From a virus, in IMG/VR virus record IMGVR_UViG_3300008999_000015, positions 1-38,433 of that record: 38,433 bases of DNA. One strand, written 5' to 3'. Each line of letters opens with the position of its first letter. Within the stretch, counting starts at the first letter, position 1. Positions 4,036-22,123 of this stretch are shown piece after piece. Below the pieces are notes generated by a model that saw only the letters and a program-made list of their open reading frames with translations, was not told where the DNA came from and searched no databases. Both the position numbers and the translations under genes were made by a program.

Positions 4036-5097
4036 CTATTTATGTTTCCAAGTTTTCATTTCATTGTTCACGAACACGCCAGCTTCTTTAAATTGTCCTC
4101 CAGCTACCATTCGTTTAATCTTTTCCATAGCAGGCTTATCAAATACACCCTCGCCACCTGTAAGCTCCATTCCTGTGTGCTGACCATTTTTATCTACTAC
4201 AGCTAATGGATTTGTCTTATGGCTGTATGCACCTTTAGTCATACCACCTGTATTATAATTACCTAAAGACATATCATCTACTCTACCAGCTTCCACACCA
4301 GACTTCTGCATGCGTACATCATAAGCATCGTACTGTCCACTCGCTATATTGATTTGAGGTCTAGGTGTTCGAGTGGAGCTGCTATACATAGATATGTCAG
4401 GCATCTTAGCTGGGTCTATATATCTTTGTGCTAACCTTATTGCAGTTTCTGGCTTTACTTCTAGTCTAGCCATAGACTCTTCAAAGTAACCTTTAGGGGC
4501 TCTTTGTGTTCCTGACTTAAAATATATATCTTCTGTTTCACTAGGACCTGTAAATCCAGCACCATAACCAATAGAAGGTCTGTAATCTATATGTCCTAAA
4601 TTACTCATTTGTATTTCCCCACCTTCTTGGTAACCTATAGAGCGTTCGCTTTGTAATTTTAAATCTTCTGATAATTGGTCTTTCTCTCTTTTAGCAGACT
4701 CTTCTCTACGTTTCTCTCTTTTCTTTTTACCTTTAGTAAGAAGTCCAACACCTAAACCAACTGCTCCACCTACAGCAGCTCCAATTGGTCCTGCAGCTGC
4801 CCCCATAGAAGCAAATTGTAAAGCAGAACCAGCAACATCAGCATTTCCATACTCAGGGTCAGTGTCAAGTGCTGAAATGGCAGCACTAGCTAATCCTAAA
4901 CCAGCTCCTAAGTTAACACTATTGGTTTCTTTTTGTTTGTCAGTTAGTGGCTCTTTGTTTTTTCTATCTTCTTTACTGCCAAATAATGAACTCTCATTAA
5001 GTCCTGACATACCTATAGCTTTTCCTACAGCACCTCCACCGTAGTACAATGCATTAGCTAATTTCTTTTCTTCTTCTTTTCCTAAGTAATTTATCAT
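4036..5097 (-). CDS. putative internal virion protein with glycine-zipper hydrophobic segment, 353 aa
   Basis: Residues about 97-121 form a Gly/Ala-rich hydrophobic stretch (GAAVGGAVGLGVGLL) of glycine-zipper type that could insert in a membrane. It is followed by a very basic segment (KGKKKREKRREE) and then a Gly/Tyr-rich region containing Y156-Q-E-G-G-E-I-Q. The C-terminus has a G-G-E-G-V-F-D-K motif and ends in Lys/His. The composition suits a channel-forming ejection protein. It overlaps the upstream muzzle-like gene by four bases. The function is inferred; no family was recognised with certainty. Confidence 0.6.
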   Translation of the reverse strand: MINYLGKEEEKKLANALYYGGGAVGKAIGMSGLNESSLFGSKEDRKNKEPLTDKQKETNSVNLGAGLGLASAAISALDTDPEYGNADVAGSALQFASMGAAAGPIGAAVGGAVGLGVGLLTKGKKKREKRREESAKREKDQLSEDLKLQSERSIGYQEGGEIQMSNLGHIDYRPSIGYGAGFTGPSETEDIYFKSGTQRAPKGYFEESMARLEVKPETAIRLAQRYIDPAKMPDISMYSSSTRTPRPQINIASGQYDAYDVRMQKSGVEAGRVDDMSLGNYNTGGMTKGAYSHKTNPLAVVDKNGQHTGMELTGGEGVFDKPAMEKIKRMVAGGQFKEAGVFVNNEMKTWKHK

Positions 5098-13335: not shown

Positions 13336-13833
13336 TTACGCTACTGTAATACCAGCTGCTGTAATAAGGGCTGCATCTACAATCCATCCAGTACCGTCAG
13401 ATACAAGATTAATGTAGTCACCTTTCTTAAGTTTAGAAGCTACAATAGTTAAACCTGCTGTACCTACTAAAGAAATTGGTGTTACACCAGCCGCAGATAG
13501 AATACCGTAAAAGATAGTGTTTCCAACTGTTCTAGTTCCGTCAGCGTTTACTGTGTAAGATTTTACAACAGAAGCGTGATTAGAATTATCAGCAGAAGCT
13601 ACAATCTTGTAGTTCAGTCCAACTTTAGGCATTGGCAATACAATAGTAGAAGCCGCACCACTAGCACCCAAAAGAATTGTAGAACCTGATTCAAAATCAG
13701 ATAATACTACTTGGTTACTAACGTAAGCTTTTACTAGTACATTACTTGCTACACGACCCTTATCATGAGTCATGTAGTTTTTGTCTTCTTCCGACTTGAA
13801 GAAGCTCTTATTTCCGTCTAATTCTCTTGACAT
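13336..13833 (-). CDS. putative capsid decoration / head auxiliary protein, 165 aa
   Basis: The protein is Ala/Gly/Val/Ser-rich and beta-like throughout (GSTILLGASGAASTIVLP, YKIVASADNSN, LKKGDYINLVSDGTGW), after a charged 25-residue N-terminus. The pattern is typical of small beta-sandwich capsid decoration or head-fiber base proteins. It lies directly downstream of the major capsid gene and upstream of a terminator, so both could be expressed at similarly high levels. No specific family was recognised. Confidence 0.5.
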   Translation of the reverse strand: MSRELDGNKSFFKSEEDKNYMTHDKGRVASNVLVKAYVSNQVVLSDFESGSTILLGASGAASTIVLPMPKVGLNYKIVASADNSNHASVVKSYTVNADGTRTVGNTIFYGILSAAGVTPISLVGTAGLTIVASKLKKGDYINLVSDGTGWIVDAALITAAGITVA

Positions 13834-21371: not shown

Positions 21372-21518
21372 TTAGTCGTGCTGTATGTAACCTCCGTCAG
21401 AGTATTTTCTACCTGAACCGTAGTTTCCTTTCATAGGATTGTTAGGAGTGTCAGAAACTTTCTTTTTCTTCTTCTTAAACATTCCCTTTACCTTCTTTAA
21501 TATCATGCGTCTTTTCAT
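21372..21518 (-). CDS. tiny lysine-rich peptide ending DGGYIQHD, 48 aa
   Basis: ATG at 21518, stop TAA at 21372-21374. The N-terminal half is very basic (KKVKGMFKKKKKKV), followed by Asn/Pro, Gly/Ser and Tyr residues, ending Y-S-D-G-G-Y-I-Q-H-D. The next minus-strand reading frame upstream encodes a 40-aa peptide with nearly the same ending, ten bases away, so both are almost certainly real and related. Possible roles are a minor virion or DNA-binding peptide or a substrate for modification. Function unknown. Confidence 0.75.
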   Translation of the reverse strand: MKRRMILKKVKGMFKKKKKKVSDTPNNPMKGNYGSGRKYSDGGYIQHD

Positions 21519-21528
21519 CTACCTAAAC

Positions 21529-21651
21529 TTAGTCGTGTTGTATAATACCGCCATCCTTATAGCTACCCATCTTCATCTTACCACCCTTCTTGTACGAAGA
21601 GCTTACTACTTTCTTAGACTTCTTCTTGTCTTTTTTCATTGAATACATCAT
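21529..21651 (-). CDS. tiny lysine-rich peptide ending DGGIIQHD, 40 aa
   Basis: ATG at 21651 (a second ATG at 21648 and a third at 21639 are possible), stop TAA at 21529-21531. It begins with a Lys/Ser-rich segment, then SSSYKKGGKMKMGSYKDGG and the ending I-I-Q-H-D. The Y-x-D-G-G-x-I-Q-H-D tail is shared with the neighbouring 48-aa peptide. A perfect TAnnTTTG box lies about 23 bases upstream, with an A-rich leader. As first gene of a two-gene unit with its own terminator it is probably strongly expressed. Confidence 0.78.
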   Translation of the reverse strand: MMYSMKKDKKKSKKVVSSSYKKGGKMKMGSYKDGGIIQHD

Positions 21652-21673
21652 GACGCTATTTTTTTTGTTTACA

Positions 21674-21681
21674 CAAACATA
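21674..21681 (-). promoter_or_regulatory. promoter box of the twin-peptide unit (TATGTTTG)
   Basis: The minus-strand octamer TATGTTTG matches the Bacteroidota -7 element exactly and is followed by a leader of about 20 bases with a run of eight A residues before the ATG at 21651. No TTG is found at the usual distance upstream. Confidence 0.5.
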
Positions 21682-21895
21682 CACAAAAATTTTTTATTTA
21701 TTTCTGAGTGCGGATGTACTATACTAGAGTGCCCCGCTCGCTCCAAAACTTTGGCTACCCTACCCTATTGTCGTAAACGTCGTATTTACTCTTTGTCGTC
21801 GAGTACATAACGTAGATAATTGTGCGTGTGTATGTGTGTGTGGAACACCTCTACAACCCCATAAACCTCGATAATCACTAACGTTTGTAGTAGTT

Positions 21896-21967: not shown

Positions 21968-22123
21968 ATAAGTAGTGTGTTACTTGTTTATTTAAGTAAC
22001 TAACGTGGTATTACGTTATCTTACCACTTACCCACCAAAGGTACAACAAATATTTGACATTGTCAAGTAGCTTGCGTACAATATTTGGTGCACTACTTAT
22101 TCATTTAAGTATGTAACACACTA
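21968..22123. repeat. competing long-range inverted repeats
   Basis: The segment ATAAGTAGTGTGTTAC (21968-21983) has three alternative complementary partners: CACTACTTAT at 22091-22100 (10 bp), GTAACACACTA at 22113-22123 (11 bp), and locally GTTACTT/AAGTAAC (21979-21985 with 21994-22000). Inside the loop lie GTGGTA/TACCAC (22005-22010, 22022-22027), AACGT/ACGTT (22002-22006, 22013-22017) and TTGAC-ATT-GTCAA (22054-22066). The pairings are mutually exclusive, as in a conformational switch or origin. Confidence 0.6.
22041..22087 (+). promoter_or_regulatory. direct repeats GTACAA..AATATTTG, candidate early promoter
   Basis: GTACAACAAATATTTG (22041-22056) and GTACAATATTTG (22076-22087) are imperfect direct repeats 35 bases apart. 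Each ends in AATATTTG, one mismatch from TAnnTTTG. A TTG at 22060-22062 lies 17 bases upstream of the second box. They may be iterons or an early promoter reading toward 22327, with a long leader that includes the hairpin GAGAGC-TTC-GCTCTC at 22136-22150. Confidence 0.35.

Follow-up and report, generated by a model that had tools for sequence, protein, structure and literature searches.

A shared C-terminal Gly-Gly-x-Ile-Gln-His-Asp tail on exchangeable small basic proteins of crAss-like phages as a candidate docking tag

Why should two neighboring phage genes encode small proteins with different bodies and yet end in practically the same peptide? The question is raised by a gene pair on the minus strand of the window, by which we mean the whole 38,433-nt stretch of viral DNA analyzed here, a single IMG/VR viral record (IMGVR_UViG_3300008999_000015). 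Protein A (48 aa, MKRRMILKKVKGMFKKKKKKVSDTPNNPMKGNYGSGRKYSDGGYIQHD; 21372–21518) and protein B (40 aa from the ATG at 21651, MMYSMKKDKKKSKKVVSSSYKKGGKMKMGSYKDGGIIQHD; 21529–21651) are small and basic, with Lys plus Arg contents of 31% and 30%, respectively, and are encoded upstream of the terminase gene at the start of the late module; both ORFs are present as given in the preliminary description. Their bodies are Lys-rich but different, and the sole shared part is the tail Y-x-D-G-G-[Y/I]-I-Q-H-D, which closes with GGYIQHD and the stop codon in A (GGAGGTTACATACAGCACGACTAA; 21372–21395, minus strand) and with GGIIQHD and the stop codon in B (GGCGGTATTATACAACACGACTAA; 21529–21552, minus strand), the tag DNA of B showing several silent differences from that of A. 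A helix is predicted at residues 3–21 of protein A, the remainder being unstructured, and the body of protein B holds an internal SYKKGGKMKMG, a copy of a [YF]xxGG motif. Direct profile searches gave no Pfam or PHROGs match for either protein.

The window is a crAss-like phage, since its terminase and portal match phrog_6681 (E 5e-85) and phrog_6547 (E 3e-108) in profile searches and its major capsid protein belongs to the Pfam family Crass_capsid (PF23898, crassvirus family; E 1.7e-31), which amounts to a Crassvirales-like terminase, portal, and major capsid protein. The closest named phages share only about 30% identity in the terminase, and from the kinds of relatives and domains found we infer a marine origin. 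As a comparison set, 80 loci with related terminases were taken from IMG/VR without using the tail in selection; together with the window, this terminase-selected set comprises 81 sequences (732 kb, near-copies included).

It had been proposed that the pair has its own promoter box and terminator. The latter is backed by folding: a terminator-like intrinsic hairpin followed by a U run lies 3’ of gene A (21335–21305, minus strand; −14.2 kcal/mol, z −3.9) and sets the pair apart from a 114-aa gene and the terminase gene. The promoter fared less well, as neither a sigma-70 nor a full Bacteroidetes promoter was found above chance upstream of the pair; what stands is that TATGTTTG (21681–21674), which resembles the Bacteroidetes −7 box, lies inside an upstream element (AATTTTTGTGTATGTTTG; 21674–21691, minus strand) that is kept with one base changed before a different gene body in the sister strain L003. 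In the window, the divergent early and late modules are separated by a long intergenic stretch (21973–22123) with an imperfect 30-nt inverted repeat whose arms lie 91 nt apart; this stretch is possibly a control region or origin.

Comparison with two close relatives shows what is kept at the locus and what is exchanged. The pair is no assembly artefact, as record L004 matches the window at 99.8% identity across the A/B stretch. In L003, which has a near-identical terminase, a single gene with a different body replaces both A and B: upstream element, tag, and 3’ terminator flank are kept between L003:1879–2069 and window positions 21372–21663, and the bodies are swapped. As the tag-coding DNA of L003 consists of the B tail joined to the last bases of the A tail, the recombination junction falls inside the tag. 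Such a junction is what one would expect if the tail were a by-product of recombination, a functionless peptide encoded by homologous 3’ DNA that allows bodies to be shuffled. We nevertheless consider this highly improbable, as the tag peptide is encoded by 90 different 24-mers in which the codons for Gly, Ile, Gln, His, and Asp vary, as does the stop codon, making use of all degenerate codons; moreover, the tag is never internal, and the Q-x-D/N ends carried by DUF6321 proteins (see below) follow quite different linkers. DNA homology therefore cannot maintain the tag, and the free codon variation instead indicates selection as a peptide. By the same token, a DNA- or RNA-level element was ruled out, given this codon variation and the lack of RNA structure over the tag of A.

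Selection appears to act on the extreme C-terminus. Among the 81 terminase-selected sequences, all 67 occurrences of GG-x-[IVM]-Q-[HY]-D immediately precede a stop codon, none being internal, and QHD followed by a stop codon was counted 59 times, versus twice for the five other orders of these residues together; these sequences were not chosen for the tail, and its recurrence is not due to chance. The preliminary description had named the absence of a homologous tail in related phages as a refutation, and the tail was looked for and is present there. Near the terminase, it was found in all 16 representatives of clade A, to which the window belongs, in 5 of 12 from clade B, and in none of the 5 from clade D, which is not a single branch in the tree (terminases clustered at 97%, with at least 1 kb of upstream sequence needed). 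Clade C and a basal lineage are tagged too, many of those loci having been found via the tag pattern itself, and clade B genomes have additional tags elsewhere, with the variants QKD, QYD, EQYD, and NQHD. Read from the tree, the suggested order of events is an early presence of the tag in the group followed by its loss in clade D. At clade B loci such as L043:5820–6005, L047:5820–6005, and L045:2238–2414, a protein of 58–73 aa encoded directly upstream of the terminase (KIKIGDKKYVxDGDxYxE..GG..) ends in Q-K/R/N-D, a tag variant on a conserved body. Two larger clade C proteins encoded near the cluster (L140:2220–3599 and L151:65–1417) end in NGGRF, possibly another shared C-terminal ending.

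Searching a viral collection with the tag pattern yielded 98 stretches, nearly all in small basic ORFs; in 257 Gb of bacterial and archaeal genomes, the same pattern matched 52 stretches, which are not Lys/Arg-rich and by estimate do not exceed chance, and a bacterial origin of the tag was thus rejected. No cultured phage with the tag was found; in the parts of their records that were covered, Cellulophaga phi14:2, Flavobacterium Fpv20, and the marine virus AG-345-E15 show none.

Which proteins carry the tag? Q[HY][DN] ends were collected from 156 unique ORFs, a few of which are probably chance matches; all but one (155/156) are net basic, with a median Lys plus Arg content of 27%, and they fall into about 42 body families (blastp at 1e-4). 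The association with basic proteins is also seen within genomes: in eight tagged genomes with mechanically called ORFs, 27 of 151 small basic ORFs were tagged versus 2 of 1046 others (Fisher p 2e-23). The clearest case of portability is provided by DUF6321 (PF19846), a domain found in 502 phage records, mostly of cyanophages and pelagiphages. The DUF6321 proteins of HTVC034P, Syn9, S-SM1, and genome G019 stop right after a final WNC (WKC in G019), whereas those of tagged phages continue for 12–21 residues beyond it and end in QLD, QHD, QND, or QHN (QHS and QHA in two clade C members). The tag on DUF6321 is thus a graft. DUF5872 (PF19197) and small proteins with the KDACYxKV motif are tagged as well, and in a few tagged proteins a Gly/Ala-rich composition suggests action on membranes rather than binding of nucleic acids, for example in L126 and in the clade B record G006 (L241). 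Some of these cargo domains have tail-less relatives in the cyanophages S-SM1 and Syn9, where they carry a hypothetical rather than a structural annotation. T4-like cyanophages have the KDACY and DUF6321 domains together in a single hypothetical protein, whose gene lies close to those of the terminase, gp16 and gp17 (Syn9 gp114, L267:2903–4234; S-SM1 SSM1_115, L268:13537–15024). HTVC034P gp26, encoded beside the DUF6321 gene of that phage, was considered as a KDACY protein and turned out not to be one.

AlphaFold2, working from shallow alignments, left the tag tail unstructured, with a pLDDT below 50 over residues 97–109 of a tagged DUF6321 protein and of about 53 over the C-terminal half of peptide A. 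The strictly terminal position, the free carboxylate, the preceding Gly-Gly, and the predicted lack of structure would fit a C-terminal docking peptide. The preliminary description had argued that a conserved tail on diverged small proteins implies a partner, and this idea has gained strong comparative support from the terminal position, the selection at the protein level, the roughly 40 different bodies, and the DUF6321 graft. What such a partner would do is suggested by the company the tag keeps: its cargo is small and basic and is encoded beside terminase and head proteins, which points to a role in packaging or in assembly of the head. We therefore consider the following model. The Q-H-D end behind a flexible Gly-Gly would be a portable docking tag, read at the free C-terminus, which these crAss-like phages would fix on an exchangeable set of small and strongly basic proteins whose genes open the late (terminase/capsid) module. 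Its binding partner would be a single conserved protein of the phage, most likely a component of head assembly or DNA packaging, such as the inner face of the capsid protein, the scaffold, the portal, or the terminase. In this way, the tag would bring basic proteins into the procapsid, where they might neutralize or condense the DNA or be injected along with it. That the tail is a portable docking or packaging tag by which one conserved phage partner, likely part of the head or of the packaging machinery, loads basic cargo into the virion is in our estimate about evenly balanced between right and wrong; within this model, we infer the single receptor, its identity as a head or packaging protein, and the final location of the cargo in the virion. 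Cargo loading does exist in this order of phages, as PhicrAss001 stores cargo proteins in its capsid and tail (PMC10172136).

The nature of the cargo, the late location, and the PhicrAss001 precedent lead us to favor a tag for virion cargo, followed by recruitment to the packaging motor. In the latter case, the small basic proteins, which probably bind DNA, would be drawn by the tag to the terminase or to the 175-aa protein encoded upstream of it, and the tag would act while DNA is being packaged, without entry into the virion. Tagged genes adjoin the terminase in clades A and C, in the basal lineage, and in part of clade B, at many loci lying directly beside the 175-aa gene and the terminase gene, and in T4-like cyanophages, too, the genes of the untagged DUF6321/KDACY proteins are close to those of the terminase. 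This is an argument from position, however, and some clade B tagged genes are far from the terminase, while clade D has both the 175-aa gene and the terminase and no tags; we thus regard recruitment to the motor as unlikely.

A further possibility is that the tail is a protease or stability signal, either a site at which a protease of phage or host cuts xGG|x, or a degron at the C-terminus or a mask for one. C-terminal ends commonly serve as protease signals, and [YF]xxGG motifs are found repeatedly, both within the bodies and immediately ahead of the tag. Yet what is selected is the terminal QHD, which the internal GG motifs lack; the head-module proteins scanned included no recognizable prohead protease, and a general stability signal would not keep to small basic proteins. 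This makes a proteolytic role quite unlikely.

The genes that all tagged genomes have in common are those for virion proteins, packaging, and replication. A comparison of presence and absence disclosed no gene that is present in all tagged and missing from all untagged genomes. Clade D, though tail-less, retains the same core head genes, so the receptor either has a second job or lies outside them. In the core head proteins of clade D, which is a longer branch, conserved columns are lost throughout, singling out no particular receptor. Five candidate partners were rejected as each fails in at least one tagged genome: an amidoligase, a glutamine amidotransferase, a GGACT cyclotransferase, and the products of a 353-aa gene (4036–5097) and a 165-aa gene (13336–13833). 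The 353-aa protein, encoded on the minus strand, has a Gly/Ala-rich hydrophobic stretch and YxxGG motifs and looks like an ejection or pore protein; it is shared by clades A and C, by the basal lineage, and by a single genome of clade B.

Three of these candidates, all encoded on the plus strand of the window, form a putative peptide-modifying set: the amidoligase (PF12224; 26477–27925), the class II glutamine amidotransferase (PF13522; 25334–26335), and the GGACT cyclotransferase (PF06094; 34454–34873). Here the tag would be the recognition or attachment site of a phage amidoligase system that modifies or conjugates the C-terminus, loosely like Pup/PafA. All or most sampled genomes of clades A and B have the three genes, as do the window and the basal lineage, but clade D does not; this tracking of the tag suggests a ligase tag, for which a C-terminal Gly-Gly followed by Gln and Asp would be a plausible substrate. 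Against this, amidoligase and glutamine amidotransferase genes have been reported in unrelated phages too, and four tagged clade C records (G017, 64.7 kb; G018, 51 kb; G020, 47 kb; G024, 49 kb) gave no amidoligase, GGACT, or glutamine amidotransferase match. As these records may be incomplete, the latter point only weakens the ligase explanation; the amidotransferase search, having also missed the weak match in the window itself, lacks full sensitivity. The capsid, a protease, or a modifying enzyme had initially been named as possible partners, and an enzyme of the amidoligase type is now disfavored because one tagged clade is without it; a ligase tag appears to us improbable.

Taken further, the docking-tag model would amount to a phage-wide sorting code, in which one crAss-like head receptor reads -Q-[H/Y]-D-COOH, any small basic or membrane-active protein that acquires the tag can become virion cargo, and bodies are shuffled by recombination at the tag. 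We advance this tentatively, as an idea somewhat more apt to be wrong than right; if true, no portable C-terminal tag for virion packaging would have been found in tailed phages before. Small orphan proteins make up the dark matter of phage genomes; with one tag spanning some 40 unrelated families, it becomes possible to predict, and to test, which of these proteins act together, and the tag leads toward a receptor that could be found. A packaging tag, if real, would explain part of the choice of virion cargo by crAss-like phages and offer a handle for loading proteins into a phage head.

Shared targeting peptides are of a known kind, as in encapsulins and phage T4; a portable C-terminal tag across dozens of small phage families appears undescribed, a non-exhaustive literature search, weak evidence when negative, having given no description of it. 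Encapsulin cargo-loading peptides are likewise short, conserved C-terminal peptides common to unrelated cargo, preceded by a flexible linker (here Gly-rich and of low pLDDT) and encoded near an HK97-fold shell (here in the same late module as the PF23898 capsid protein). Encapsulin cargo peptides are LGIGSL-type motifs, however, unlike GG-x-[IVM]-Q-[HY]-D-COOH, and a single phage genome encodes several different tagged cargoes, whose binding to a shell is hypothetical. The capsid targeting sequence of T4 (IPI-III, Alt) is also one short peptide on several unrelated internal head proteins; it is N-terminal and cleaved by the prohead protease, whereas the phage tag is exclusively C-terminal and no such protease was recognized among the head-module proteins scanned. 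With Pup/PafA, the tag shares a Gly-Gly near the C-terminus, and many tagged genomes also encode a GS-like amidoligase, but the tag sits on many proteins rather than one modifier, it ends in QHD instead of GGQ/E, and the ligase (amidoligase plus GGACT) is absent from the four, maybe incomplete, clade C records. Some tagged bodies are members of the DUF6321, DUF5872, and KDACYxKV families, while the DUF6321 relatives in cyanophages and pelagiphages end without a tag. The C-terminal tip of SSB, finally, also docks to its partners through a free carboxylate and a few conserved residues; there, one protein serves many partners, whereas here many basic proteins share one tip.
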